DNA of 64,000 bases from Thiohalorhabdus sp. Cl-TMA (lineage in GTDB: Bacteria > Pseudomonadota > Gammaproteobacteria > Thiohalorhabdales > Thiohalorhabdaceae), in contig NZ_JBGUAW010000007.1 of the NCBI RefSeq assembly GCF_041821045.1, positions 186,001 to 250,000 on the forward strand, read 5' to 3'. This document shows positions 9,322 through 46,702 of the stretch, in pieces; position 1 is the stretch's first letter, and each line of letters begins with the position of its first letter. The notes below the pieces were generated by a model. The model saw only the letters and a program-made list of their open reading frames with translations. It was not told the origin of the DNA and did no database searches. Made by a program: the position numbers and the translations under genes.

Positions 9322-9672
9322 TCAGCCGAAAGTGGTGGAGTTGGTGCCCCAGAGGTGGCGCTCCACATCCTGGAAATGGATGTACACCCGTGCCGGGCTG
9401 ATGCCGAGGCCTTCCCGCAGAAAAGCGCACAGCTCGGCGGAAAGATGCGCCGTTCGCTCCAGGGGGAGCCCCAGGCTGGCCAGCTCCACGAAGGCCGCGG
9501 GCTCGTCCGTTCCGGCGAACAGCAGATCGCGGCCGGTTTCCAGCGTAACCATCACGGTCCGCTCGGGCTTGCCGAGCAGCTCGGCAACCTTGCCCGAGGC
9601 GGCGCCCAGGAATTCCCGGCGGGATTCGCTGGTGGAAAGCACCTGATTGGTCTCGAGACGCAGCAGAGGCAT
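9322..9672 (-). CDS. Macrophage migration inhibitory factor (MIF)-like tautomerase
   Basis: A 116-residue member of the tautomerase superfamily resembling MIF and D-dopachrome tautomerase. It begins Met-Pro, so after Met removal the catalytic Pro is N-terminal. The C-terminal half (GISPARVYIHFQDVERHLWG followed by NSTTFG) matches the animal-type MIF ending. The TVMVTLE and FAGTDEPAAFVELASLG segments align with the core strands. Ribosome-binding site AAGGAAG precedes the ATG. The physiological substrate is unknown; keto-enol tautomerisation of phenylpyruvate-like compounds is the family activity. It follows the PilZ gene by 27 bases at the end of the chemosensory gene run. Confidence 0.87.
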   Translation of the reverse strand: MPLLRLETNQVLSTSESRREFLGAASGKVAELLGKPERTVMVTLETGRDLLFAGTDEPAAFVELASLGLPLERTAHLSAELCAFLREGLGISPARVYIHFQDVERHLWGTNSTTFG

Positions 9673-9699: not shown

Positions 9700-10221
9700 T
9701 CAGGAGGGCCGCAGCCGGCGGCGCTCCACTTCCATCACGAACTGGGTAAGCACCCGCTCCACGCCGGTTGGCATGCGGGCGAACTGGCAGGCCATGTAGA
9801 CCCATTTGCTGGTATGCTCGACCCAGATCACCGTTGCCGGCAGATGGACGTAGCTCACCCCCGTTTCCTCGGGAACCTGCAGCTCAAGAGCCACGCTGAC
9901 CCGGTCCCCCTTGGCCACCTCGGGCGCCTTGTCCCACGCGGCATCCCCGCCGAACCCGGTCCGGAAGCCGCCGGCACTCAGGTTCACCTTCCGGTGGGGC
10001 TGCACCTGGATCCGCTCCCTTGCGTCCTTCAGCTCCGGTTCGCTGGGACCGATCAGGGGAGAGATACCCCCTTCCTCTGCGTGCGCCCAGGGCTTGCGGT
10101 TGTCTTCCCCCAAAGGGGCCACGCTGATCCGGAGATCGGCATTGACGCGGAAGTGCTCCCGCTGCTCGGCGCCCTTGGGGGCCGCATCCTTCCCGGAGGA
10201 ATTGCTGGCCTGGTCGTTCAT
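9700..10221 (-). CDS. PilZ domain protein (predicted c-di-GMP receptor)
   Basis: A 173-residue soluble protein with a single PilZ domain. The c-di-GMP-binding RxxxR is seen as REHFR (about residues 21-25) and the second motif as NLSAGGF (NxSxxG), followed by the strands typical of the fold (ATVIWVEHTSKWVYMACQF). The spacing between the two motifs is longer than usual because of a polar insertion. It lies downstream of a YbgF-like lipoprotein and a chemotaxis gene set on the same strand, so flagellar or chemosensory output control by c-di-GMP is plausible but inferred. Confidence 0.8.
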   Translation of the reverse strand: MNDQASNSSGKDAAPKGAEQREHFRVNADLRISVAPLGEDNRKPWAHAEEGGISPLIGPSEPELKDARERIQVQPHRKVNLSAGGFRTGFGGDAAWDKAPEVAKGDRVSVALELQVPEETGVSYVHLPATVIWVEHTSKWVYMACQFARMPTGVERVLTQFVMEVERRRLRPS

Positions 10222-10345
10222 GTAGCTCCCCAGCTGCTTGTTAGCCTGCTTCGGCGGCAGCCCTCCGCTCGAAATGGTGAGCCCGCTATTCTACCTATAC
10301 CGCATGGCCCTGCCTATGCACCCGCGGCATTTCAGCGCCGCTCCG

Positions 10346-11254
10346 CTAGAACTGCTCCTTGCGGATGCGCTCCAGCCGCTGCTGGGCAAGCCCGGCCACC
10401 CGATGGTCCGGATACTCCTCGACCACCTTCAGCAAGGTCTTGCGGGCGTTGCGGTAGTCCTGCAGCTCGTAGTAGGCATACCCCTTTTTCAACAGAGCGG
10501 CGGGTCCCTTGTCGCTTTCGGGGAAGCGTTGCCCCACGCCCTGGAAGGCCTCCAGGGCCCGCTCGTACTTGCCGCGCACGTAGAAGGCCTCGCCGAGCCA
10601 GTACTGGGCGTTATCCGCGTATTCGCTTTCCGGGTGATTGCCGAGGAATTTCTGGAAGCCCTCGATGGACTTCTCGTAGTCCCCGGCCCGCAGGGACTGG
10701 AAAGCGTCGCGGTAGGCCCGTTCATCCGCGGGGCGATCCTCGGGCTTGGCCGATTCGTCTGTGGCATCAGACGAACCCCCGCCCTTCTGCGGGGCCTTCA
10801 TGGCCCCCATATTGTTCTCCTCGGCGGGATCACCCGCCATCGCGTAGCTCTTCTCTTCCAGGGCCACGATCCGGTTATCCAGCTGTTCGAGCTCGGCGCG
10901 GATCTGGGTGAGCTGCTTCTCCAGCTGCCGGGACAAGCGGTCCAGCTCGTGACCGTTTACCTCCGTTCGGCCACCCAGCTCGTGGACGCGCTCCTTCATC
11001 AGCCCCAGCCGCTCCGTCAGCTCCGGGGGATCGGTTTCCGACTGGTCCTTGCTCGCCATGGCCTGGCGCAGTTTGGCCAGTTTCTGACCCTGCTGTCCCA
11101 GGGCCTTCTGCAGGCTTTCGACCCGGTCCTTGAGCTTGTCCACCTCCCCCGGATCCGGACCCCGTTCCGCGTTGCGCACCCCCGGCGGCGGCAGGCAGCC
11201 GCTCAAGAGCAGCAGCGCGCCCACGGCGAGCCCCAGGTGTCTAGGCATCTTCAT
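10346..11254 (-). CDS. YbgF/CpoB-like TPR lipoprotein with coiled coil
   Basis: About 302 residues. The N-terminus (MKMPRHLGLAVGALLLLSGC) is a lipoprotein signal with a clear lipobox Cys. A long coiled coil follows (about 35-150), then a polar linker and C-terminal tetratricopeptide repeats (about 185-300; DYEKSIEGFQKFL, YADNAQYWLGEAFY). This is the YbgF/CpoB layout, which in E. coli coordinates peptidoglycan synthesis with Tol-Pal. Here no tol-pal genes are near; instead it overlaps cheR by 14 bases, so it is probably an accessory of the chemotaxis/motility cluster. The frame extends upstream without a signal sequence, hence the start at 11254 (or Met at 11248). Confidence 0.82.
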   Translation of the reverse strand: MKMPRHLGLAVGALLLLSGCLPPPGVRNAERGPDPGEVDKLKDRVESLQKALGQQGQKLAKLRQAMASKDQSETDPPELTERLGLMKERVHELGGRTEVNGHELDRLSRQLEKQLTQIRAELEQLDNRIVALEEKSYAMAGDPAEENNMGAMKAPQKGGGSSDATDESAKPEDRPADERAYRDAFQSLRAGDYEKSIEGFQKFLGNHPESEYADNAQYWLGEAFYVRGKYERALEAFQGVGQRFPESDKGPAALLKKGYAYYELQDYRNARKTLLKVVEEYPDHRVAGLAQQRLERIRKEQF

Positions 11255-12071
11255 TCTTGCGAAAGCACTGCACGCCATCCACCCGCTCCCTTTCGAACCT
11301 CGCGTCCATTCGCTGGGCATCCTCACCCGCGCCGGTGAACAGGTAACCGTCATTGGCCATGCGGTGATGGACAGTCTCCAGCGCCTTCCGCTTTCCTTCG
11401 TCGTCGAAATAGATGAGCACGTTCCGGCACAGGATGATATCGAAGCGGGACAGCGGGAAATCGGGCTCGAGGATGTTCATCTCCCGATACCGGATCATGT
11501 GCAGGATCTCGGGGCGGGGACGGTAGCCGCCCTCCACCTGCTCGAAGTAGCGGCGTCGAACCTCGGGGGAAGCCCCGCGCCGCATCTCCAGCTCGGAATA
11601 GACCGCCTTCTTGGCGCGGGAAATGGCCTCGTCGCTCACGTCCGTGCCGACCACCATGCAGCGGTCGGCGCGCTCCGGCGGCAGCACCTCGCGCAGGGCG
11701 ATGGCCAGGCTGACCGCCTCCTGCCCGGTGGAGCAAGCGGCGCTCCAGACCTTCAGCTCCTTGTCGCCGCGGCGTTCCGCCAGCTCGGGGATGATCCTTT
11801 TCTCCATCACCTCGAACGGCCGGCTATCGCGGAAGAAGCTGGTTTCCTTGATGGTCAGGGCATTGAGGATGGCATCCACGACTTCCGGGTTGTTCCGCTC
11901 CCGGTAGACGTGGGTGACCAAATCATTGAGCCCGTCGTAGCCCCATTCCCGTGCCAACGGCTGCAGCTTGGAGCGCAGGGAATAGCTCTTTTCCGGCTTC
12001 AAAATGATCCCCGATTCCTTCTTCAGGAATTGGGCGAGAAGATCGAAATAATAGGGGCTGAGGTCACTCAT
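11241..12071 (-). CDS. cheR: Chemotaxis protein methyltransferase CheR
   Basis: Methylates glutamates of chemoreceptors using S-adenosylmethionine. The 276-residue protein has the N-terminal all-helical domain (FDLLAQFLKKESGI) and the methyltransferase domain with KVWSAACSTGQEAVSLA (AdoMet-binding loop) and FDIILCRNVLIYFD (motif near residue 200). The start MSDLSPYYF is preceded by GGAGAG. The open frame extends 25 codons further but lacks family similarity there. It lies between cheY and the YbgF-like gene. A terminator-like hairpin between cheY and this gene suggests at least partly separate expression. Confidence 0.95.
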   Translation of the reverse strand: MSDLSPYYFDLLAQFLKKESGIILKPEKSYSLRSKLQPLAREWGYDGLNDLVTHVYRERNNPEVVDAILNALTIKETSFFRDSRPFEVMEKRIIPELAERRGDKELKVWSAACSTGQEAVSLAIALREVLPPERADRCMVVGTDVSDEAISRAKKAVYSELEMRRGASPEVRRRYFEQVEGGYRPRPEILHMIRYREMNILEPDFPLSRFDIILCRNVLIYFDDEGKRKALETVHHRMANDGYLFTGAGEDAQRMDARFERERVDGVQCFRKNEDA

Positions 12072-12144
12072 AGCCGCGGCGGTTCTCTCCGTGGAGGCGC
12101 AGGAGGTGGCTGCTCGCCACTGGACGTTCCCGGCCGGAGCGAGC

Positions 12145-12184
12145 AAAAAAAGAGGGCCCCGCCCGGCCGGGAGACGGCGCCCTT
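12145..12184 (-). terminator. Terminator-like hairpin downstream of cheY
   Basis: On the minus strand an AGGGC...GCCCT stem encloses an inner CCCGGCCGGG palindrome and is followed by CTTTTTTT. It lies between the cheY stop and cheR and could end or attenuate the cheW-parA-cheA-cheY transcript. Confidence 0.55.
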
Positions 12185-12241
12185 CATGGTCATGTTTTCT
12201 CGCGAATCCGCTGACTCTCCGACCCGACTCCCGGACCGGAG

Positions 12242-12604
12242 CTAGCTCAGGAACTCGGAAAGCTCGTCGTAGAGCTTCTGGGGGGTGAAGGGCTTACCCA
12301 CAACCTTGTTGGCCCCGGCCTCCACCGCCTCCCGGCGTTTGGCCTGGGTCTGCTCCGTCGTAATGAACACGAACGGCGTCAGGGCGTCCTGGCTGCGGAA
12401 ATGCCGCAGGAACTCCAGGCCGTCCATGACCGGCATGTTCCAGTCGGACAGGATGACTTCGGGGCTGAAGGCCCGCAGCTTCTCCTGCGCGTCCTGCCCG
12501 TTCTCCGCCTCCACCACTTCCAGCTCGGAAAATCCCGCCTTGCGCAGGGAGCTCTTGAGAACCATCCGCATGGCGCGGGAATCATCCACCAGCAGTACTT
12601 TCAT
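12242..12604 (-). CDS. cheY: Chemotaxis response regulator CheY
   Basis: A single receiver domain of 120 residues with no output domain. The acidic pair DD is at residues 7-8 (LLVDDSRAMR), the phospho-acceptor Asp is in VILSDWNMPVMDG (about 57), with Thr in FITTE and the conserved Lys in VGKPFTP. This is the CheY pattern, so the phosphorylated form should bind FliM at the motor. It is transcribed after cheA with a 97-base gap that contains a small G/C hairpin (12678-12696). Confidence 0.95.
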   Translation of the reverse strand: MKVLLVDDSRAMRMVLKSSLRKAGFSELEVVEAENGQDAQEKLRAFSPEVILSDWNMPVMDGLEFLRHFRSQDALTPFVFITTEQTQAKRREAVEAGANKVVGKPFTPQKLYDELSEFLS

Positions 12605-12701
12605 CGCCTCGGTTTCCCCTGGGTCCTCTCACGCAAGGCCGGCGGACCGGGCCTCGCATTTCGATTCCGGTGTAACGCCCCCTTTTCCGAAGGGGGAAGC
12701 C

Positions 12702-15700
12702 TCATGCACCAGCGGCCAGATCATCGGGAACCCGCTGCTCGGCGGAGCGCTCCACGGCCTCCCGGTCCAGGATTCCGACCACCTGATCTTCCCACAATGC
12801 GGCGCCCGAGATGCCCGCCACTGACTTCCCGGAGCCCTGCTCCGTCGGCCGCAGGTGCTGGATCCCGTGCAAATGGTTGGTGAGGATACCCTGCATCCAG
12901 TTGCCTTCGCCATCATCCATGAAGACGATGTAGGCCTCGTCCCCCGGATGGCGGAAGGACTCCCCCGTGACGGTGGCCAGCCGCACCACCGGGACGGCGC
13001 GGTTCTCGCGCTTCAGGTACTCGTGACCGTTCATCCATTGCACCTCGTTCACCGACACCAGCTCGATATGGTGGACGTCCTCGCGGGCCAGGGCGTAGAC
13101 CTCGTCCGCGCCGCCGTCCAGCAGCAGGTACGGGAAGGTCTCCTCGCGTCCCTCTTCCTCGGCGACCTCCCGGGTCTTGGAGTGGCCCCGCATGGTGGCG
13201 ACGCGGGAGAAGAGCCGCGCCACGTCCACCACCAAACTGATCCGGCCGTCCCCCCGGACGCTCGCGCCGGCGAAGTAGTCGGGCTCATGGATACCCTTGA
13301 GTGCATCGAGGGACTTCATCACCGCCTCTTCCTTGCCGACGATTCGGTCCACCAGGATGCCCGCCCGCTGCACGCCGAGCTCCAGCACCACCAGGTAGCG
13401 GGCGTCGCCGTCGTGCACCCGGCTCATGCCGAACAGCTCGGTCATCTGCAGGATGGGCAGAATCTCCCCCTCGCGCTGGTAGACGCGCTGGCCCCGCACC
13501 GTGGTCACGCGGTCGGGCTCGAAATCCAGGGTCTCCTTCACCGCCTCCAGCGGAATGGCGAAGTGCTCCGGGCCGATCTGCACGATCAGGGTCTGCTGGA
13601 TGGACAGCGTCAGGGGCAGCCGGATGCGCACCGTGGTCCCCTCGCCCACCGTGGAGTCCAGATCGATGGAGCCCTTCAGGGACTCCACGTTGGAGCGCAC
13701 CACGTCCATGCCCACGCCGCGGCCGGAGATGTCGCTGACCTGGTCCGCGGAGGAGAAGCCCGGGGCGAATATGAGCTGCTGCGCCTCGCGCTCGCTCAGC
13801 TGGTCCGCTTCGGACTGGTCGATGACCCCCCGCTCCACCGCTTTCTGGCGGAGCTTTTCCGCCGAAAGGCCCGCGCCGTCGTCGCCCACTTCGATGACCA
13901 CGAAGTTCTCTTCGTAGTAGGCGCGCAGGTTGATCTTGCCGGCCCGCGACTTGCCAGCAGCCTCCCGCTCCTCGGGCTCTTCCACGCCGTGGTCCACGGA
14001 ATTCCGGATCAGGTGGACCAGGGGATCCTGGATGGCCTCGATGACGTTGCGGTCGAGCTCCGTCTGCTCGCCGCTGATGTCGAGCTGCACCTCTTTGTGG
14101 GTCTTTCGGGCGAGGTCCCGAATCACCCGCTTGAACTTGTTGAAGCTGGCGGACAGGGAGTGCATGCGCGTCTGCATGACCGCCGACTGCAGGTCCGAGG
14201 TCACCAGGTCCAGGCGGTGCGCTTCCTCGGCCAGGTCCTCGGCGAGGCGCTCGTCGTCCAGGGCGTTCGCCACCCGACGAGCCAGCTCGCGGTTCTGGTT
14301 GCGGGTGAGCACCAGCTCGCCCACGAGATTGAACAGCCGGTCCAGGCGATCGAGCGGTACCCGCAGCGTCTGCGCTTCCCGGGAACCGCCGCCCTCGGAG
14401 TCCTCTCCGGCACCCGTCGGGGCGTCCTCCCCGGAGGCCGGGGCCGACGCCGTGGCGGCCTCCGACTGCTCCTGCGCCGCCGGCTCCGAATCCGAAGAAT
14501 CGCGGGAAGCAGCGGGAGCGGAGCCCGAACCGGTGTAATCCGGGCGCAGGTAGTGGGCCAGGTGGGTGGCCACGGGCTCCACTTCCACATTGTCCCCGAA
14601 ACCGTCCACCACCCGGTCCACCACCTTGCGGAGGATATCCGTACCCGCCAGGAGGTCGTCCATCATCTCGGCGTTGAGCGGGACCTCGAAGCTCCGCAGA
14701 CGGTCCATGACCGATTCCATTGCGTGGGCCAGCCCCTGGAGGCGCACCAGTCCCACGAAGCCCGCGGTGCCCTTGATGGTATGGATGGTGCGGAAGGCGC
14801 TGTGCAGCCGCTCCTCGTCCTCCGGGTGGTCCTCCAGCGCCATCAAGGCCTGGTCCAGCTCCTCCAGGCCTTCCCGGGACTCCTCGATGAAGGCGCTCAC
14901 CAGGTCGGGATCGGCGTCCTCGGGAAGCCGCTCGATGCCGTCGGGGATTTCCACTTGCGGGGTTTCCGCCACGGTTTCCTCGTTGGGTTCGGATTGTACC
15001 TGCGGACCCTCCCCCCCATCATCGGGCTCCGCTTGCGGCTGTGATTCGGGCTCTTCCTCCGGGACGGGCGCTTCGGCCGCCGCCTCCCCGAGAGCATCGG
15101 AGGTTTCGGGTTCCTCGTCCGCCACCTCACCGCCTTCCTCCCCGCCGGGTGCGGAGGGCAGGTGTCGGGCGAGGCGCTCGTGGGCATCCTCCGCTGCCTG
15201 CTCGTCCTCGCCGAGCGCCCCGATGGCAGCTCGCAAGTCCTCGACAAAGATCTTGTGGAGGCGGATGTCGAATGCGGCCAGCCCTTCGAAAAGGGTATGG
15301 AGCCTCTGCGCCAGGCTGGCGAAGGGACCGCCCTCCTGGGCGTATTCCGCGGCGCTGGCTTCGGCGGCCGCGCGGGCCTGCTCTAGGAGACCCCGGTCCC
15401 CGGGATTTCCAGCGAGCGCTTCCAGTGCGGAGCCGAGTCCGTTCATGGGTGCGGCCTCTTGGCTAGCGGGTTGCGGGGATGAATCGGGAGCCACCTGCTC
15501 CTCCGGCTTCGGCTGCAGCGCCTGCAGGGCATCGATTTCCGCTTCGGCGTCGCCATCCACCAGGGCCCCGGCAGCGGCGCGCAGCCGCTCCGCCACCTGC
15601 TCGGACCAGGGCAGGACCCCTTCCGAATAGGCACCGAGCACGTCCCCCATGCGCAGCGCGAGCGTCTCGGGATCGCCCTCCAGCGCCTCGGAGACGTCGT

Positions 15701-16556
15701 CCAGCAGCATGCCCAGGTCGTTGAGCGCCTCCTCGGAGGCGGGGTCGGCAATCAGCCGTTCCACTGCCGGCGGGACCGCCTCGGCCCCACCGCCCTCGGG
15801 GCCGTTGTCGGTCTCCCGGAGCGCCTCCAGCCGGGGCAGGACCCCTTCGGGGACCTCCGCCGCCTCAGTCAGTATCGAAGCGGCCTCCTGGAGGGTATCG
15901 CTCATGGCGCTGGTCCACTCCAGCTGCCCTTCTGCGTAGTCCCCGAGTACGTCCCCCATGCGCAGGGCGAGCGTCTCCGGCGCTCCGTCCAGCTCCTCGG
16001 ACAGCTCGTCCAGCCGGCCGCCCAGCCGTTCCAGGACCCCCTCGTCCGCGGGGTCCGCCGCCAGGGCCCGGAGGTCATCGGCCACGGCCAGGGCGCCCCC
16101 CTCCGCGGAGGATCCGGACTCTTCCCCTCCGGCATTGTCCTCCACGAACAGGTGCCGCCGCAGATGGGCCTCCCACTCGCTGAGGGCGGTCTCGGGGGTC
16201 TCCCCCTTCAGATTCCGATCCAGGTCCGCGAAGACGCCCTCCAGGTCCCGGTACATGATCCGGTGCAGGCGGACGTCGAAGTTCGCCATCTGTTCGAACA
16301 GCTCCTCCAGGACCGCCAGCAGGGCCCCGCCCGGCTCACCCAGGGCCTCCGGGGCGGCCTCCCGGATACTCCGCATCCGGGCCACCAGCTCGCGATGCAG
16401 CTCGGGGTCCCCCGGACGCTCCTGCAGGGGCGCCAGAGCGGCGCTCAGGGAGCCTTCCTCCGGCCCGGCCTCGGTCTCCGGATTGAAGAAGCGGGCCATG
16501 ATGGCCTCGAATCCTTCGGAATGGGGTCCCGTGCTGTCGCCTTCATGACCTGCCAT
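12702..16556 (-). CDS. cheA: Very large CheA histidine kinase with duplicated N-terminal modules
   Basis: Central chemotaxis kinase, 1284 residues against about 650 for classical CheA. The C-terminal half is canonical: Hpt domain with phospho-His592 in HTIKGTAGF, dimerisation helix (LDRLFNLVGELVLTRNQ), ATPase N-box (HLIRNSVDHG, about 852), G-box (ISGRGVGMDVV, about 947) and a CheW-like domain (about 985-1100). A second CheW-like segment (about 1140-1270) follows. The N-terminal 500 residues contain two copies each of two modules in the order A-B-B-A: module A with FDVRLHRI (about 92) and FDIRLHKI (about 428), module B with ETLALRMGDVLG (about 193 and 296). None of these N-terminal modules has a phospho-accepting His. 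Ribosome-binding site GGGGAGGAG precedes the ATG. Confidence 0.93.
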   Translation of the reverse strand: MAGHEGDSTGPHSEGFEAIMARFFNPETEAGPEEGSLSAALAPLQERPGDPELHRELVARMRSIREAAPEALGEPGGALLAVLEELFEQMANFDVRLHRIMYRDLEGVFADLDRNLKGETPETALSEWEAHLRRHLFVEDNAGGEESGSSAEGGALAVADDLRALAADPADEGVLERLGGRLDELSEELDGAPETLALRMGDVLGDYAEGQLEWTSAMSDTLQEAASILTEAAEVPEGVLPRLEALRETDNGPEGGGAEAVPPAVERLIADPASEEALNDLGMLLDDVSEALEGDPETLALRMGDVLGAYSEGVLPWSEQVAERLRAAAGALVDGDAEAEIDALQALQPKPEEQVAPDSSPQPASQEAAPMNGLGSALEALAGNPGDRGLLEQARAAAEASAAEYAQEGGPFASLAQRLHTLFEGLAAFDIRLHKIFVEDLRAAIGALGEDEQAAEDAHERLARHLPSAPGGEEGGEVADEEPETSDALGEAAAEAPVPEEEPESQPQAEPDDGGEGPQVQSEPNEETVAETPQVEIPDGIERLPEDADPDLVSAFIEESREGLEELDQALMALEDHPEDEERLHSAFRTIHTIKGTAGFVGLVRLQGLAHAMESVMDRLRSFEVPLNAEMMDDLLAGTDILRKVVDRVVDGFGDNVEVEPVATHLAHYLRPDYTGSGSAPAASRDSSDSEPAAQEQSEAATASAPASGEDAPTGAGEDSEGGGSREAQTLRVPLDRLDRLFNLVGELVLTRNQNRELARRVANALDDERLAEDLAEEAHRLDLVTSDLQSAVMQTRMHSLSASFNKFKRVIRDLARKTHKEVQLDISGEQTELDRNVIEAIQDPLVHLIRNSVDHGVEEPEEREAAGKSRAGKINLRAYYEENFVVIEVGDDGAGLSAEKLRQKAVERGVIDQSEADQLSEREAQQLIFAPGFSSADQVSDISGRGVGMDVVRSNVESLKGSIDLDSTVGEGTTVRIRLPLTLSIQQTLIVQIGPEHFAIPLEAVKETLDFEPDRVTTVRGQRVYQREGEILPILQMTELFGMSRVHDGDARYLVVLELGVQRAGILVDRIVGKEEAVMKSLDALKGIHEPDYFAGASVRGDGRISLVVDVARLFSRVATMRGHSKTREVAEEEGREETFPYLLLDGGADEVYALAREDVHHIELVSVNEVQWMNGHEYLKRENRAVPVVRLATVTGESFRHPGDEAYIVFMDDGEGNWMQGILTNHLHGIQHLRPTEQGSGKSVAGISGAALWEDQVVGILDREAVERSAEQRVPDDLAAGA

Positions 16557-16579
16557 GACTGCTCCTCCCCTCAGGGCAT

Positions 16580-17359
16580 CTAGCTGCCCAACCGTTGATC
16601 CTGAGGCTCGCGGGTGCCGATATCGGCGGCAACCGATTCCACCAGCTGTCCATAGCGCTGCGCGGCCGGGCTGGCGCTGTCCACTTCGAAAACGGTGCGG
16701 CCCTGCTGCAGGCCTTCCGGAATGGCCATATCGTAGGGAATGGGCGCCGCCACCCGTTCAGGCGGCAGGCTCTTTCGGGTCCGGTTCAGCCAGCGCATGT
16801 GCCAAGTATTGTCCTCGCGGACCATGGTCGGAACCACCCCGAAGAAGCCCGGCTGATACTGGAGGTAGCGGCCCATGAAGCGCGCGTACTCCAGGGTCTG
16901 GGTAAGTCCGCGGAAGGACAGCAGCTCCATCTGAACCGGGGCGATCAGGGATTGCGCCGCATAGAAGGCGTTGACGATGATCAGGGAAAGCGAGGGCGGA
17001 CAATCGAAGACCGCCGCATCGTAATCGCCCAGCTGCCCCAGGGCCTCGCGCAGCGCGGCCTCGCGGCGCGGCCGCTCGGCCAGCACCAGCTCGAGCTGCG
17101 CCAGGGTGCCGTCGGCAAGCAGGGCATCCAGACCGCTGCGGATCGGCACCAGACACTGCTCGGTCGACACCCCCTCCCAGACCGCGTGATAGAGGGTGTG
17201 GCGCGGGGTCTGCCGGAAATAGGAGGCCAGCGCCCCCTGGGGGTCCAGATCAACGAGCAGGGTCCGGTAGCCCCGCTCCGCCAAGCCCCAGGCAAGGTGC
17301 ACGGAGGTGGTGGTCTTCCCCGCACCGCCCTTGTGGTTCACCACCGCGAAGGTTCGCAT
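16580..17359 (-). CDS. ParA/Soj-family ATPase in chemotaxis operon
   Basis: A 259-residue P-loop ATPase of the ParA/MinD superfamily. The deviant Walker A motif is NHKGGAGKTTTSVHLA (residues 8-23) with the signature Lys, Walker A' is LLVDLDPQGA, and Walker B is AAVFDCPPSLSL. No ParB homologue is adjacent. It lies between cheW-pilZ and cheA with gaps of 36 and 23 bases. Known relatives in such positions (ParC of Vibrio, PpfA of Rhodobacter) position and segregate chemosensory arrays, so that is the likely role. A plasmid-partition role is unlikely given the context. Confidence 0.9.
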   Translation of the reverse strand: MRTFAVVNHKGGAGKTTTSVHLAWGLAERGYRTLLVDLDPQGALASYFRQTPRHTLYHAVWEGVSTEQCLVPIRSGLDALLADGTLAQLELVLAERPRREAALREALGQLGDYDAAVFDCPPSLSLIIVNAFYAAQSLIAPVQMELLSFRGLTQTLEYARFMGRYLQYQPGFFGVVPTMVREDNTWHMRWLNRTRKSLPPERVAAPIPYDMAIPEGLQQGRTVFEVDSASPAAQRYGQLVESVAADIGTREPQDQRLGS

Positions 17360-17395
17360 GAATCTCGCTATCCGCTCCGTCCCCGTGGGGATCCG

Positions 17396-18217
17396 TCAGT
17401 CCAGGCGGTAGGCCCGTTCCAGAAGGGCTTCCTGCTCGCCCGTCAGGCTGCCGAAGGCCAGGCCGTATTGAAAGGAAAAGCCGCCCGCGAGACCGCTTCC
17501 GGTGCGGCCCCAGCGCACCTCGGCCTGGAGATTGACCCGCTTCTGGCCCTTGTGCTCCCGGTCCAGGGGCAGGCTCAGCTCCAGCCAAGCGTTCTCCGAG
17601 AGGTCCTGGTCGGTCTCCATGCGCAGGCCACCCTTGCTGATGGAGCTCATGTGGGCGTCATGCCACTCCTCGGCGCCCGTATCGCGCTGCTGAATGGTGA
17701 GGTCCACGGTTTGCCGGGCATGGCTTCGCTGGTCCAGATAGGGGTTCTCGGGAAGCATCCGGGCCAGGTCCACGAGCACCACCACCCCGTCGGCGGAGTT
17801 CACGATGCCGGTCAGGTAGCTGCCGTGCTGGCGCTGGATCTCGGAGTTGGACGGCGGGGACTGGATCTCCTCGCGCTCAATGGCCCGGAGGTCCGTCACC
17901 TCGTCCACCACAAAGCCCACAAGGCGCCAGTCCATGTCCACCACCAGAATCCGCGATTCGGCGGTATCCTCGAAGGTGGACAGCCCCAGGAGGATCCGGG
18001 TGTCCAGAACCGGCACGATCACGCCCCGAAGGTTCATGAGCCCCCGCAGACTCTGCGGGGAATCGGGGATAAAGGTGAGATCCCGGTCGAGCAGGGTGTC
18101 CACTTCCTTCAGGGTGCACACATCCACCCCGAATAGCTCTTCCCCCAGGCGAAACAGGAGATACTTGGCTGCATCCGCGCTGTGGGCATCCTTGGAAATC
18201 TGCGTAGTACTTTCCAT
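17396..18217 (-). CDS. CheW-PilZ fusion protein
   Basis: The 273 residues consist of an N-terminal CheW adaptor domain (about 17-160; YLLFRLGEELFGVDV, LRGLMNLRGVIVPVLD, VGFVVDEV) and a C-terminal PilZ-like domain (about 165-270). The PilZ part contains RSHAR (an RxxxR motif) followed by SSISKGGLRM, which matches the second c-di-GMP motif except that its first Asp/Asn is Ser. The CheW part should couple receptors to CheA, and the PilZ part could make that coupling sensitive to c-di-GMP. No separate cheW gene is in the window. Ribosome-binding site GGGAAGG precedes the ATG. It is the first gene of the chemosensory run. Confidence 0.85.
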   Translation of the reverse strand: MESTTQISKDAHSADAAKYLLFRLGEELFGVDVCTLKEVDTLLDRDLTFIPDSPQSLRGLMNLRGVIVPVLDTRILLGLSTFEDTAESRILVVDMDWRLVGFVVDEVTDLRAIEREEIQSPPSNSEIQRQHGSYLTGIVNSADGVVVLVDLARMLPENPYLDQRSHARQTVDLTIQQRDTGAEEWHDAHMSSISKGGLRMETDQDLSENAWLELSLPLDREHKGQKRVNLQAEVRWGRTGSGLAGGFSFQYGLAFGSLTGEQEALLERAYRLD

Positions 18218-18631: not shown

Positions 18632-20554
18632 ATGCGCCACTTCCAAAGTTTAAGTGTCCGCCTGCAGTTTCTGGTCACGGCCATCATCGTGGTCCTCACC
18701 GGCGCCATGCTCTGGCTCCTATGGTCGGCGACGCAATACAGCAACCATATCTGGGAGCAGCGGGTGTCGCGGGTCAACCAGGGCTGGCAGTCCCTTCAGG
18801 AGTCCTCGACCCGGCGAATCGTGTCCGCCGTCCAGGAAAAGCTCCAGGCCGAGGCCCGGGACCTGATGCTCAAGGGGCGCTCCATGAGCACGGTCACCCA
18901 GAGCATCAAGGACGGCAGCTCCTCGGGCTTCGGGGACGCCCTTTTCACCCTTCAGAGCCTGCCGGGGGTTTCCGCCGACAGCCGCTTCGTGGCCTACAAC
19001 CTGTCCGGTACCACCGATGACGTACAGGTAAAGGGTGCGCTGCAGGGCGACCGGAAGTCTTGGATGGACGCGCTCACCACAGCGCTTACCCGGGTGCCGC
19101 CCCAGGAGGCCATCGAGGGCCTGGCCAGCTTCGCCCTTATCGACGGCAAGCCCCATCTCACCGCGGCGGGACTCGTGCACCGACAGACCCGTTCGGCCTA
19201 TCATTGGCAGGGGGTCTTCGGCGTGGCGGTGCCCATGAAGGGCTTCCTGGAGCAGGTGGGCGGCTTCCTGTCCACCGACCAATTTCCGGCGGCCCTGGCG
19301 GTGGTCTCCCCGACTGGAAAGGTGCTCCGGAAGCACGGAAGCCTGAAGGAGCTCAAGGAGCCCCCTTTCTCTCCGGAGAACGGCGTAGAAGGGGCGGGAG
19401 CCCGCTTCCTAGACGGCGGAAGTCTTGCCCGCATCCTCACCCCCCTGGAAGGGGCGGACGGCAAGACGCACGCCTATCTTTCCGCCGTGGTATCCATGCG
19501 CACCATCGAGAGCGTGCTGGCCGACCGGAGCCGCCTGGAGGCGGCGGACCGGGAGAACGCCTTCTGGGCCCTGGGCCTTGCGATCGCGGTACTTGCCCTG
19601 GGCTCGGCGAGCTTCGCCCTGGTGGCGCGCAAGAACCTGCAGGAGCCCATCCGCGCCCTCCGGGAGGAAATGGTCCGCATCGCGGACAACGACCTGAGCC
19701 AACCGGTCCGGAGAACCGAGCAGACGGAGCTCGGGGATCTGCAGAACGCCACCGAGAAAATGCGGATCACCCTCAACAGCCAGATGCGCGGCAACCGGGA
19801 GCAGTCCAGTCAGCTCGCCGCCGCCAGCGAGGAGCTGAACGCCTCGGCCGAGGGACTCCGCGAGAGTGCCCAGGCCCAGGCGTCGCGCTCCTCGGAAGTG
19901 TCCGGGTCGGTGCAGGAGGTGAACCAGGTAGTCCAGGACGTCGCCAACAACATCAACGAGGTTTCCCAGTCCGCCGGGCGGGTCAACGAGGAATCGGAAG
20001 CGGGCAGTAAGGAGGCGGAGCAGGCGAGCCGCCAGATGGAGGACCTGCGCACCACCACCGAGAATGTGGACCGGATCACCACCACGATCCAGGAGATCGC
20101 CAAGAAGACGGACCTGCTGGCCCTGAACGCGGCCATCGAGGCGGCCAACGCCGGCGAGCAGGGCAAGGGCTTCGCGGTGGTCGCCGACGAGGTCCGTCAG
20201 CTCGCTGAGCAGACCTCCAGCGCTACCGGCGAGATCAACGGCATCCTTGCGCAGTTCCGGCAACAGGTGGACGAGAACTCAAGCACCCTGCACCGCCTAA
20301 CCGCGGCCATGGAGAACATCCACACCCAGGCGCAGAGCACGGACCAGATGGCGAACCAGATCGCCGCCTCCGCGGAGGAGCTGGCCGCGACCATGGGCGA
20401 GACCACGGACAACCTGGGCGAGATCCAGGAGACCGCCCAGAACGTCACCGACTCCGTGGAGCAGATCCGCGAGGCCGCCTCCCAGGTGGACCGGATGGCC
20501 CGTCAGCTCGCCGAGACGGTGCAGGAGTTCCGGCTTCAGGAAGGCACCGGCTGA
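18632..20554 (+). CDS. Methyl-accepting chemotaxis protein with periplasmic sensor domain
   Basis: A 640-residue transmembrane receptor. TM1 spans about 12-31 and TM2 about 308-331, enclosing a periplasmic region of about 275 residues, large enough for a double-Cache sensor. A HAMP domain follows (about 332-385), then the cytoplasmic signalling coiled coil. The kinase-contact tip is the highly conserved segment starting [20 protein letters not shown] (about 487). No C-terminal CheR-tethering pentapeptide is seen. The start ATG follows AGGAGAGAG. The ligand cannot be predicted. It is divergent from the cheW-pilZ operon. Confidence 0.93.
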
Positions 20555-20624: not shown

Positions 20625-20984
20625 CTAGCCGCCCAGCTCCCGCCAAGCCCGGCGGTAGCGGGCATTCAGGCCGGTGTCCTGGCGCACCTGCCTGGCGATC
20701 CGGTTATAGCGGTCCACGGTTAGGCCGCGCTCCCGGACCGCCTCGACCATCCGCTTGCGGACCGCGCGCCCCACCGGCAGGCGCGCCTTGCCGCGCATCA
20801 CTTGCAGCTCGCGGGCCGCCGCCGCGAAGGCGGCCATTTCCCGCTCGGACACGGAATCCGATTGCTCCTCCCCCTGGACCGCCGGCGTCGCCAGCCCGAA
20901 CAGGACCAGACAAGCCGCTGCGCCCGTCCGCACGGACCGTCTGCCGCCTCGGGATACCCGGGTCCCGGAATCAGTGAACCGCAT
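20625..20984 (-). CDS. Small exported DUF4168-like protein
   Basis: A 119-residue protein with a basic N-terminus and a hydrophobic stretch (about 20-38, ending ATPAVQG) that fits a signal peptide. The remainder is helical and ends with [19 protein letters not shown], which matches the DUF4168 pattern (Y-x-x-IA-x-x-x-x-x-D). The frame extends further upstream, but the Met at 20984 begins the signal-like sequence and overlaps the end of the upstream chemoreceptor by 14 bases, implying coupling. Function unknown; family members are found in envelopes of many bacteria. Confidence 0.7.
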
Positions 20985-22110
20985 AATTTTCCTTCTCCGA
21001 GCGGATCTTCTCCGCCATCTCGCTAATGGCGCGGGAGGCTTCCTGAATCTGCTCCACCGACTGGCTGAGGGTCTGGCTGCTCTCCGCCACATCCGAGATC
21101 TGGCCGGTCACCTCCGACATGGTGGCGGCCAGCTCCTCCGCGGAGGCGGCGATCTGCCCGGCCAGCGAGTCGGTATGCTCGATCATGCCCAATATACCGG
21201 TCATGCCCTCCATGACCCGGTCCATGGACTCCGCGGAATCCCCCACTTCCCCCTGCAGCCGATCCAGGATGCTGTCGATACTGGTAGTCGCCTCGCGGGT
21301 GTTCTCGGCCAGCTTGCGCACCTCGTCGGCGACCACCGCGAAGCCCTTGCCCTGCTCGCCGGCGTTGGCTGCCTCGATGGCCGCGTTCAGCGCCAGCAGG
21401 TCCGTCTTCTTGGCGATCTCCTGGATGGTTCCGGCGATCTTGGCTACCTCGCCGCTGGTGGCAAGCATGGCCTTTACCCGCTGGGAGGCCCCCGCCAGGG
21501 TCTCCATACCCTCCTCGGCCGTATTGCTCGCATTGGAGGCGGACTGGGAAACTTCCGTCACCTTGCTGGCGACATCCTGAACCACCTGATTGACCTCCTG
21601 GGCGCTGTGGGACACATCGGCGGTCTGACGCGCCTGGAACTGCACCGCCTGGCCCATCTCCTCGGCGGTGCCGTCCAGCTGGCCCGAGTGCTCCACCAGG
21701 CTCTCCGACTGATGCAGCCCCTGGTATACCTCCTGCCGCAGCTGGTCACGAAGATCGGCAACCGCGCCGACCATCCGCCCCACCTCTCCGGCGTCCCGGG
21801 TACGCAGGTCACCGGCGGCGTGGCTCAGGTCTCCGGCAGCGAGCCGGGTTAGGGCGCCCTCCACCCGGCGCAGGGGCCGGACCACCATGATATAGGTCAG
21901 GGCCACCATGGCCCCGATTATGGCCATGCCCAAGGGCAGCAGCCACGCCAGGGCCACCGCCCCGAGCGCCGCGCCCAGCACGGGCAGCAGCACGGCGGCG
22001 GCCGCCAGATCGAGGAGAAGGATGCGCATGTGCAGGGAAGTACGGCGCCAGGGCAGGAGAATCGACGCTACATACCGATCCCATCCGGCTGCTGATACTG
22101 TTGCTTCCAT
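20971..22110 (-). CDS. Chemoreceptor lacking a periplasmic sensor domain
   Basis: 379 residues. Two hydrophobic segments (about 29-50 and 53-77) lie almost back to back, so there is no room for a periplasmic ligand-binding domain. A HAMP domain follows (about 78-130; [20 protein letters not shown]), then the signalling hairpin with [20 protein letters not shown] (about 232). Such receptors sense via the membrane, the HAMP domain or a partner. The small exported protein encoded immediately downstream, with overlapping reading frames, is a candidate partner. It is divergent from flgM, with 221 bases between the starts. Confidence 0.9.
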
Positions 22111-22675: not shown

Positions 22676-23215
22676 ATGCCGACCCTGGATGATTTACCCA
22701 CCCCGAAGGCCATTTCCAGTGGCTTCGCCCAGCTGCTTTCCCAGACCCCCAAGGTGGAAGGCCCCGAGAAGCTCGTGAATTTCAAGCTGAACCAGGTGGC
22801 CCGCCGTTCGGGCGGCATGTTCGTCGCCGCCCTGCACCGCAACCTCCAGGGGGACGAGGAGATCATCGGCTGGATGGGCGTGGGCATACGCATGGCCATC
22901 GCCACCGGATGCATGATGGTCATGGACCCCTCGGTGGAGGAGAAGGTGGAGAACGTGGAGTCCAACGACCTCACCCTCGACGCTGCCCGGGAGGTCCTCA
23001 ACGTGGCCACCGTGTTCTTCAACCAGGAGCTGGAGAACAAGGGCTGGGAATACGGCATCCGCGTCGGCCACGCCCGCCCGATGGCCCCCAACGAGATGAA
23101 GGGCGAGGGGGTGGATGCGGACAACTTCAGCGTGGGCGGCATCTACCTGATCCACTTCCCGGACATCCGGGCCCTGGACAAGCGGGGCGGCTCGCTCTTC
23201 GTAGCCTTCGAGTAG
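22676..23215 (+). CDS. CheC/CheX-like protein, possible CheY-P phosphatase
   Basis: A 179-residue soluble protein with no confident close family by eye. The segment DAAREVLN (about residues 102-109) fits the active-site pattern of CheC/CheX/FliY phosphatases (D/S-x3-E-x2-N), and a Pro follows 26 residues later, somewhat further than the usual spacing. The flanking GWMGVGIRMAIATGCMMVM and GGIYLIHFPD strands resemble the CheX core. It lies between flgM and the convergent cheB. The window has no cheZ, so a CheY-P phosphatase is functionally expected. Treat the assignment as a hypothesis. Confidence 0.5.
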   Translation: MPTLDDLPTPKAISSGFAQLLSQTPKVEGPEKLVNFKLNQVARRSGGMFVAALHRNLQGDEEIIGWMGVGIRMAIATGCMMVMDPSVEEKVENVESNDLTLDAAREVLNVATVFFNQELENKGWEYGIRVGHARPMAPNEMKGEGVDADNFSVGGIYLIHFPDIRALDKRGGSLFVAFE

Positions 23216-23227
23216 GCCGGAGCCGCC

Positions 23228-23252
23228 GGCTTCGGGCGTTCAGCCCGAAGCC
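23228..23252. terminator. Hairpin between convergent cheC/X-like gene and cheB
   Basis: A perfect 10-bp stem (GGCTTCGGGC / GCCCGAAGCC) with a 5-base loop overlaps the cheB stop. No T-run follows on either strand, so it may serve as a transcript-end stabiliser or a weak bidirectional terminator. Confidence 0.45.
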
Positions 23253-24364
23253 GCGGCGGCGTACAGCACCCGCGACAGCAGGTCGCTGATGCCCCTGGGC
23301 TCCATGACCGCGTTATGGAGCCCCGCCCGGGCGACGGATCCCGGCATTCCCCATACCGCGCTGCTCTCCTCGCTCTGGACCACCACCACGCCGCCACCCG
23401 ACCGGACATGGCGCGCGCCTTCCAGCCCGTCCTGTCCCATTCCCGTCAGCACGATGCCGAGCACCCGCGTCCCGGGGAGCTCCGAGGCGGACATGAACAG
23501 CGGATCCACCGCCGGCCGGCAGGAATTGACCCGCGGCTCCTGGTCCAGATGCACCGTCAGGCGATTGGTGTAGCGGGACAGGCGCATGTGGTAGTTGCCC
23601 GGCGCCACCAGTCCCGTCCCCACCGGGACCTTTTCGCCGTCCTCGGCCTCCCGCCAGGGGAACGGGCCCCGCGCCCCGAGGCGGTCGGCGAAGGGCCCGG
23701 TAAACCCCTGGGCCATGTGCTGCACGAGCAGAACGGGGACACGCGGCGGCCCAACGGCGTCCACCGCGCTCCAGATGGTATGCAGGGTCTGCGGTCCCCC
23801 CGTGGAGCTGCCGATCACCACCAGGTCCGGCTGGAACCCGGAGGGAACTCCGCCTCCCTCGCGGATGGGCGCCGCGGGCTTCTCGGGAGCGGCGGCAGGG
23901 GCGGCCCCCCGGGCGGGCTCCTCCCCGCGCTTGCCCTTTTTGGCCCGGACCAGTCCGCGGACGGTCCGGGCCAGCTCGTTGACCGTTTCCTCCAGCGGCT
24001 CCCGCATGCCCGTCCGGGCGGGATCCGGCTTGTTCACGAATTCCTGGGCCCCACGCGAGAGGCATTCCATGGTGACCTCGGCGTTCTTCTTCGACGCCGA
24101 GCTGAACATGACCACTACCAGATCGCTGCGCTTGTCGGGCTGCAGATGATCCAGGAACTGGATGCCGGTCATCTCCGGCATTTCCACGTCCAGAACCACC
24201 GCATCCGGTTTTTCGGCCTCCACCATCTCCAGGCCTTGCCGGCCGTTGTGGGCGGCTCCGACCACCTCCAGTCCTTGTGCCCCGCCCAGGCCCTTTTTGA
24301 GGACCGACCGCACCACCGCCGAATCGTCCACAACCAGAACCCGGATGGGTTCTCCTGATGCCAT
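23240..24364 (-). CDS. cheB: Chemotaxis methylesterase CheB
   Basis: Demethylates or deamidates chemoreceptor glutamates when phosphorylated. The 374-residue protein has an N-terminal receiver (LVVDDSAVVRSVLKKG; phospho-Asp in VVLDVEMPEM), a Pro/Ala/Lys-rich linker (about 145-175) and a C-terminal esterase. The catalytic triad is visible as Ser in IGSSTGG, His in VQHMAQGF and Asp in GMGQDG. The start at 24364 is chosen because AGGAGA lies six bases upstream; the ATG at 24397 lacks a ribosome-binding site. It is located apart from cheR and cheA, directly after the flg operon terminator. Confidence 0.94.
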   Translation of the reverse strand: MASGEPIRVLVVDDSAVVRSVLKKGLGGAQGLEVVGAAHNGRQGLEMVEAEKPDAVVLDVEMPEMTGIQFLDHLQPDKRSDLVVVMFSSASKKNAEVTMECLSRGAQEFVNKPDPARTGMREPLEETVNELARTVRGLVRAKKGKRGEEPARGAAPAAAPEKPAAPIREGGGVPSGFQPDLVVIGSSTGGPQTLHTIWSAVDAVGPPRVPVLLVQHMAQGFTGPFADRLGARGPFPWREAEDGEKVPVGTGLVAPGNYHMRLSRYTNRLTVHLDQEPRVNSCRPAVDPLFMSASELPGTRVLGIVLTGMGQDGLEGARHVRSGGGVVVVQSEESSAVWGMPGSVARAGLHNAVMEPRGISDLLSRVLYAAAASG

Positions 24365-24428
24365 CCGCTTCTCCTGCTCGGGCTTTTTGGGTTTCATTCA
24401 CACACACAGCGATGGTGGGAATATACCC

Positions 24429-44680: not shown

Positions 44681-46702
44681 TCAGGCGTCATCCAGCTCCC
44701 CGGCGTCCATGCCCAGGGCCTCCATGAGGGGCCCGAGATGCTTCTCGTACTTGCGCCACCGCTGTTTGGACTTCCTGTAGATGGGCTGCCGTACCTGATC
44801 GTAGCTGGCGGTCTTGGTATCCCGCTTGGTCTTGTGCGGCTCCAGACACGCCTGGTCGAAGGGCAGCTCGACGAAGTCCAGCAACCGGGGGATCTCCCCC
44901 TCCGGATTCTCCACCAGCTCCTCGTACTGGAGCTCGTAGATGGGCATGGGCAGCACCTGCCGCCAGTGCTCCATGAGCTGCTGGTAGAGCCGATGGTAAT
45001 GGCCCAGGTTTTCCAGGCTGTAGGTAAAGCTCATGCCGGCCGCGGCGAAGTTCTGGACGTAGCAGGACAGGCAGTTGTCCAGCGGGTCGCGGTTGGTGTG
45101 GATGATCTTCGCCTCGGGGAACAGCAGGGCGATCAGCCCCAGATGCAGGAAGTTCTGGGGCATCTTGTCCGTGACCCGCTCCACCCCCTCCGGCGCCAGG
45201 GTATTGATATGGTTCAGATACTCCTGTGCGCCCCAATCCAGCTCCCCGGCCTCGACCTCCGCCAAGAAGCCGGGATACTTGCCGCCGGAGCGATTGGTGA
45301 GCTGGTTGAGGATCCGGTCCACCTCGCTCAGCTCTCCCGCTCCGAACACGTCGGGGTGACTGGCCAGGATCTGCTCAGTGAGGCTGGTTCCGGAGCGCGG
45401 CATGCCGACGATGAATACCGGACGCCGGGAGCCCAGGGTCGACCGGGGCGCCTGGCGGAAGAGCTCGGCGCTGAACCCCTCCATGAGGTTGCGGAAGTTC
45501 TCCTCCTCCCGATCCCGGTGGTATACCCGCGGCTTCAGGGCGTTGGCCCGTGCGTAGGCCGCGAAGGACTCGTCATAGCGCCCGAGGTCGGCGTACATGT
45601 GCCCGGCCTGAAAATTCAGCTCCAGCCGCACGCCGTTGGGCAGGCCCTGGTTATTCAGGGCGTTCTCCAGCATGCCGATGGCCTCTTCCTGGGCATCGAA
45701 CCGCCGGGTGAGGGTCAGGAACAGATTGAAGATGGCCGGCTTGTACTCTCCGCCTTTCACGATGAGCGGCCGGACCAGCTTGTAGGCCTCCTTGAAGCTC
45801 CCCTTGCGCTCCAGCAGATTGCCCTTCTGGGCGATCAGGAATTCGTCGTCCGGGGCCAGCTCCAGCGCCTTGTCGATCTGCTCCTCGGCGCCGTCCCAGT
45901 CTCCGCCGGCGGCGAGGGAATGGGCCAGTGCACCATAGCCGCGCGGGTTGTCCGGCTCGAGATTGACCGCCCGCTGCGCCTCGGGCCTGGCAGCCTGGGA
46001 AAAGCCCATGGACTGGTAATCACCGGCCAGCTGGATGCGGTACTTGGCCTCGGCCGGGAATTCGTTGACCAGCTGGCGGCTGATTAGCATGGCCTCCTTG
46101 GGCAGGCTCAGGGAGCGCAGCACCTTGGCCACCGTCTCCCGCGCCTCGGTGCCCCGGGGACCGAGGTTGGCCGCGGCGCGGGCGATCTCCTTGGCCTCGT
46201 CGTGGCGGTCGAGGAGAAGCAGCACCTCGGCGAGCTTGGCGAAGGCTTGCGGGTCGCGGGGCCGCAGCACCACCGCACGGTCCAGCACGTCGCAGGCCTC
46301 CTGGTGGCGACCCTCCGCCTTCAGGGTCAGACCCAGGTTGAGATAGGCCTCGCCGTAGCTGGGCGCCGCCTCGATGGCCTTGCGGTACTCCGCCTCCGCC
46401 GACGCCAGGTCCTCCAGGGAGAAGTGGGCAGTGGCCAGATTGCAGTGGTAGAGCGGATCGTCCTTGAGCTCGATGGCCGTCCGGAAGAATTCCACCGCCA
46501 GCCGCGGCTGACCGACCTGCAGGGCGATCAGCCCCATGCCGTGGTGGGCCCCGGCCACCCCGGCGTCATTCTGCAGGATCTCCCGATACAGGTCCTCGGC
46601 GCGCTCCAGGTCCCCGCCCTTGTGGTGGAGATGGGCGGTATCGAGCAGCTCCGCGATCCGCGCATCCTGGGCATTACCGTTTCCGGCGTCGGCTTCGGTC
46701 AT
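44681..46702 (-). CDS. TPR-repeat sulfotransferase
   Basis: 673 residues in two parts. Residues about 20-400 are tetratricopeptide repeats (for example AYLNLGLTLKAEGRHQEACD). Residues about 425-660 form a sulfotransferase domain with the PAPS-binding 5'-phosphosulfate motif VGMPRSGTSLTEQILASHP and the 3'-phosphate motif HTNRDPLDNCLSCYVQNF. The family transfers sulfate from PAPS to proteins (tyrosine) or sugars. It lies between flgL and fliC on the same strand, so flagellin or hook-associated proteins, or their glycans, are candidate substrates; this is inference from position. Confidence 0.85.
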   Translation of the reverse strand: MTEADAGNGNAQDARIAELLDTAHLHHKGGDLERAEDLYREILQNDAGVAGAHHGMGLIALQVGQPRLAVEFFRTAIELKDDPLYHCNLATAHFSLEDLASAEAEYRKAIEAAPSYGEAYLNLGLTLKAEGRHQEACDVLDRAVVLRPRDPQAFAKLAEVLLLLDRHDEAKEIARAAANLGPRGTEARETVAKVLRSLSLPKEAMLISRQLVNEFPAEAKYRIQLAGDYQSMGFSQAARPEAQRAVNLEPDNPRGYGALAHSLAAGGDWDGAEEQIDKALELAPDDEFLIAQKGNLLERKGSFKEAYKLVRPLIVKGGEYKPAIFNLFLTLTRRFDAQEEAIGMLENALNNQGLPNGVRLELNFQAGHMYADLGRYDESFAAYARANALKPRVYHRDREEENFRNLMEGFSAELFRQAPRSTLGSRRPVFIVGMPRSGTSLTEQILASHPDVFGAGELSEVDRILNQLTNRSGGKYPGFLAEVEAGELDWGAQEYLNHINTLAPEGVERVTDKMPQNFLHLGLIALLFPEAKIIHTNRDPLDNCLSCYVQNFAAAGMSFTYSLENLGHYHRLYQQLMEHWRQVLPMPIYELQYEELVENPEGEIPRLLDFVELPFDQACLEPHKTKRDTKTASYDQVRQPIYRKSKQRWRKYEKHLGPLMEALGMDAGELDDA

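Follow-up and report, generated by a model that had tools for sequence, protein, structure and literature searches.

In Thiohalorhabdus sp. Cl-TMA, a gene coding for a CheW coupling protein fused to a PilZ domain stands next to a parA-like gene among chemotaxis genes, which raises the question of whether the kinase coupling and the placement of this organism's chemoreceptor array respond to c-di-GMP, as an initial annotation of the sequence had proposed.

The chemosensory cluster and its flagellar setting

Within the window (the whole 64,000-nucleotide stretch of DNA that was analysed), seven genes follow one another on the minus strand from position 18217 to 9700, in the order CheW-PilZ, ParA, CheA, CheY, CheR, YbgF/CpoB-like lipoprotein and PilZ (Table 1); reading frames and Pfam matches bear out both the order and the shared direction that had been annotated. 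The gaps between cheW-pilZ and parA (36 bases) and between parA and cheA (23 bases) are short, cheR overlaps the lipoprotein gene, and some of the remaining gene pairs are about 100-170 bases apart. The gene arrangement suggests that the cluster is likely read as a single transcript; promoter and terminator scans yielded matches at chance level.

The seven genes sit within one large flagellar locus, and the chemosensory system extends past the 9700-18217 interval, up to 24397, with two methyl-accepting chemotaxis proteins (MCPs), a CheX-like protein and CheB. On this side of the cluster, a divergent MCP gene is followed by genes for the second MCP, FlgM, the CheX-like protein and CheB, and beyond CheB flagellar genes run on past that end of the window. 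Adjoining the flagellin gene is a gene for a TPR-sulfotransferase protein (44681-46702, minus strand), which is possibly a flagellin-modifying enzyme. At the other end, a MIF/tautomerase-family protein (9322-9672, minus strand) is coded immediately downstream of the PilZ gene. The YbgF/CpoB-like lipoprotein (TIGR02795 at 120 bits vs. a cut-off of 90) is coded within the chemotaxis cluster rather than beside tol-pal.

Table 1. Genes of the chemosensory cluster and of its extension, with positions in the window
Product	Position	Strand	Domains, motifs and basis
CheW-PilZ fusion, 273 aa	17396..18217	-	Pfam CheW 18-156, PilZ 163-269; RSHAR 164-168, SISKGG 192-197, NLRG 62-65
ParA-type ATPase, 259 aa	16580..17359	-	KGGAGKT Walker motif; Pfam and tree, with che-linked ParA in best tree
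CheA, 1284 aa	12702..16556	-	Four N-terminal repeats, Hpt, dimerisation, HATPase, two C-terminal CheW domains
CheY, 120 aa	12242..12604	-	Single receiver; Pfam
CheR methyltransferase	11241..12071	-	Pfam; ATG start at 12071 likelier than TTG at 12146
YbgF/CpoB-like TPR lipoprotein	10346..11254	-	TIGR02795; gene start overlaps cheR end
Single-domain PilZ protein, 173 aa	9700..10221	-	Pfam; REHFR, NLSAGG
Methyl-accepting chemotaxis protein, divergent	18632..20554	+	
Second methyl-accepting chemotaxis protein	20971..22110	-	
CheX-like orphan protein	22676..23215	+	D-x3-E-x2-N motif (LDAAREVLN); no Pfam match
CheB methylesterase	23240..24397	-	

The CheW-PilZ fusion and its rarity

Both domains of the fusion scored far above their curated Pfam cut-offs (CheW, 97.9 bits vs. 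23.5; PilZ, 46.3 bits vs. 22.5) and are joined in one frame by a linker of a few residues. The CheW part keeps the NLRG motif and most positions conserved in its relatives, with a two-residue insertion, and codon-position GC is coding-like on either side of the CheW/PilZ junction. An error of assembly or sequencing might be suspected, as the fusion occurs in one genome only, yet it lies in the interior of a 288-kb contig, its frame is uninterrupted and codon-position GC is uniform across the junction, which makes an artefact hardly credible; on frame and codon composition we rejected this reading, as well as that of a pseudogene. An AlphaFold model of the protein was set aside (mean pLDDT 37).

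Within the fused PilZ domain, the RxxxR motif is present (RSHAR), but the [D/N]xSxxG motif is replaced by SISKGG, with Ser in place of D/N (SxSxxG), a deviation absent from the initial annotation and unlike the other RxxxR PilZ domains inspected, all of which have D or N at this site (in two of them, L129 and L131, the pattern had missed the true stretch, which was read by eye). The PilZ half alone gave no meaningful match against solved structures; a profile that joins it to the CheW half also picks up PilZ proteins of solved structure that bind c-di-GMP (e.g., PA4608 and Alg44). As annotated, the separate PilZ protein (29.7 bits) has both motifs intact (REHFR at residues 21-25 and NLSAGG at 80-85), at a spacing made wider than usual by an insertion.

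How common is this combination? Searching 369 Gammaproteobacteria with the whole fusion protein (E 1e-22) recovered plain CheW proteins only and no full-length relative. A fused profile was then used (a search model only, made by joining natural sequences of PilZ to those of the C-terminal half of CheW), on the expectation that a fusion should outscore either half alone; among the matches listed from 398 Pseudomonadota genomes, this protein alone spanned both domains, and the others were plain CheW or plain PilZ proteins. Scanning the contigs of close relatives with the fusion returned nothing, and a tblastn search of plasmids returned no fusion and no record covering 80% of the query. Two candidates were discarded: a Leisingera plasmid match (78% query coverage) proved to be a plain CheW of 160 aa with CheR after it, and a 251-aa CheW frame in genome G109 has its CheW match at residues 97-237. 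In the genus, the other two genomes yielded just a weak CheW match and none to CheA, and no CheW-PilZ protein is described in the literature searched.

The cluster's co-conservation in related genomes, proposed initially as a check, is thus unsupported: no sampled relative carries the fusion, and a single genome gives no sign of selection on CheW and PilZ together. This absence from every sampled relative, alongside otherwise standard che components, would fit an ordinary chemotaxis system in which PilZ was added to CheW recently, in this lineage alone and with little effect, and ParA acts as in known ParC systems. Unlike a decaying appendage, however, both domains keep a coding composition and most of their conserved motifs, and we consider such a reading improbable.

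A single flagellar coupler in a probably F6-like system

The initial annotation had described the only CheW in the window as fused to PilZ, which holds for stand-alone CheW proteins but not for CheW domains, two more of which are found in CheA. Across the whole genome, there are five CheW-domain matches: one in the fusion, two in the CheA of this cluster, and one each in a further CheW and a further CheA, which are coded on contig 10 and adjoin a receptor in a Pil/Chp-like layout. The genome thus has a second CheA kinase and a second stand-alone CheW, but this other pair is that of the pilus (Chp) system, to which one of the 19 MCP matches belongs as well. Genome-wide, the flagellar system is left with the fusion as its one stand-alone CheW, so that any receptor signalling to the flagellar CheA via a CheW must use it. 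Neither CheV nor ParP (AIF/CheW-like domain) was found among the five CheW-fold matches; since the same Pfam model finds the ParP proteins of relatives (45-49 bits), the lack of a ParP match here carries weight.

CheZ was likewise not found in the genome, which makes the CheX-like protein a candidate CheY-P phosphatase. It had no match in 311 other Gammaproteobacteria, and a scan with the CheX-like pair returned nothing; the pair is made up by a 43% identical paralogue at contig 3:291047-291574 (genome G000). The AlphaFold model of the CheX-like protein was set aside (mean pLDDT 39).

CheA is enlarged at both ends. Ahead of the Hpt domain (551-641, with H592), its N-terminus (residues ~16-470; 15147-16511, minus strand) consists of four related helical repeats of ~100 aa each without a Pfam match, two of which share 55% identity across 67 aa. 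The C-terminus bears a second CheW domain (12732-13193, minus strand). The CheA proteins of two other genomes (G063 and G303), which have another che layout, bear a C-terminal extension of similar length, such that the second CheW domain is apparently common to all three; among the loci compared, these genomes also provided the best matches of the window CheY and CheR. Phylogenetically, the CheA core is sister to a clade of F6-type layout (89/75, on a long branch, with class labels inferred from gene order); CheZ, a feature of the F6 class, is lacking. Our best reading is that the organism's single flagellar chemotaxis system is related to the F6 class and branches deeply.

The ParA gene, also highlighted initially, does lie among che genes, but this association is not new: it is already known from the widespread ParC/ParP systems (PMC5706961, PMC7534058), and ParA beside che genes was common in the Gammaproteobacteria sampled here. 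Che-linked ParA occurred in relatives in two layouts, FlhG-FliA-CheY-CheA-CheB-MotA-ParA-(ParP)-CheW and CheY-CheA-CheW-ParA-MCP-CheR-CheB, and in two trees the window ParA grouped with the first of these (98/92 and 96/88), on a long branch. Could it instead be a chromosome- or plasmid-type ParA, placed among che genes by chance and not acting on arrays? The long branch would allow this, as would the best single match, a non-che ParA, and an AU test in which grouping with chromosomal-type ParA was not rejected (p 0.24). Set against these are the 96/88 grouping with che-linked ParA in the best tree, the disfavoured placement beside the chromosomal ParA of the organism itself (p 0.031), and the frequency of che-adjacent ParA in the class, and we therefore judge a non-array ParA quite unlikely.

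With ParP missing from the genome, the putative array contact of this ParA would have to be another protein. A ParA without ParP, the cheW-pilZ gene immediately upstream of parA and the SxSxxG in place of [D/N]xSxxG would all suit a fused PilZ that no longer binds c-di-GMP and has become a protein-interaction module, e.g., a scaffold part or a purely hypothetical ParA contact replacing the N-terminal domain of ParP. Speaking against this are the RxxxR retained at its expected position and a PilZ score well over the Pfam cut-off, which leaves this reading possible but on the unlikely side.

A candidate c-di-GMP input compared with known systems

Overall, we favour an F6-like array variant whose coupler carries a candidate c-di-GMP input, with a probability of about 0.5, because the Ser substitution casts doubt on c-di-GMP binding. 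In such an array, the CheW part would connect receptors to CheA as usual, while the PilZ part, with its RxxxR arm at the CheW/PilZ junction, would bind c-di-GMP and turn relative to CheW, and at high c-di-GMP this turn would alter coupling gain or array stability. ParA would position the array as ParC does, most simply by contacting CheW-PilZ or the enlarged CheA, and the CheX-like protein may dephosphorylate CheY. Two precedents bear on these steps: a chemoreceptor-borne PilZ regulates taxis in Azospirillum (PMC6406031), and the ParC-binding part works once moved to another array component (PMC5706961). The c-di-GMP-responsive array first proposed is thus supported insofar as the fusion is the sole flagellar CheW, ParA lies among che genes and the organism has GGDEF-motif proteins (at least two, counted over about 400 kb and the loci read), and weakened by the imperfect signature of the fused PilZ; a response of array placement to c-di-GMP stays conjectural. 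The most far-reaching version, in which c-di-GMP would reach all receptors via the single coupler, CheW-PilZ would replace ParP, and both gain and placement would depend on c-di-GMP, appears distinctly improbable.

This system resembles the ParC/ParP-equipped F6 system of Vibrio cholerae cluster II (PMC5706961, PMC7534058) in its ParA-like ATPase among flagellar che genes, its CheA core, which probably branches beside the F6 clade, and its CheW-fold adaptor coded beside parA. Unlike the V. cholerae system, it has neither ParP nor CheZ, its CheW bears a PilZ domain, its CheA is extended by N-terminal repeats and an additional CheW domain, and CheR and a CheX-like protein are coded in or near the cluster. 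A PilZ fused to an array component is also seen in Azospirillum brasilense Tlp1 and Aer and Azorhizobium Cbp1 (PMC6406031, PMC6454048), where it is carried by individual receptors rather than by one shared coupler. Like Pseudomonas aeruginosa MapZ (PMC6370697), the fusion is a candidate PilZ protein for feeding c-di-GMP into a chemotaxis pathway, but MapZ is a separate adaptor that acts on CheR1 and has no CheW fusion. CheV (PMC12691637) likewise combines a CheW domain with an additional regulatory domain, which in CheV is a phosphorylatable receiver, and works beside a plain CheW. Finally, the Cle proteins of Caulobacter (PMC5677366) are chemotaxis-type proteins that read c-di-GMP, as the fusion may do, but are CheY-like, act at the motor and carry, where the fusion has PilZ, a C-terminal extension rich in arginine.

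The ParA part of this cluster is thus known biology; the uncommon variant is a sole CheW fused to PilZ. In the literature found, c-di-GMP inputs to chemotaxis target individual receptors, CheR or the motor; if the sole CheW of this organism senses c-di-GMP, one signal could tune all flagellar receptors together. CheW-PilZ offers a simple two-domain protein for measuring the effect of a second messenger on kinase coupling, and a ParA without ParP is a natural test of other array tethers.
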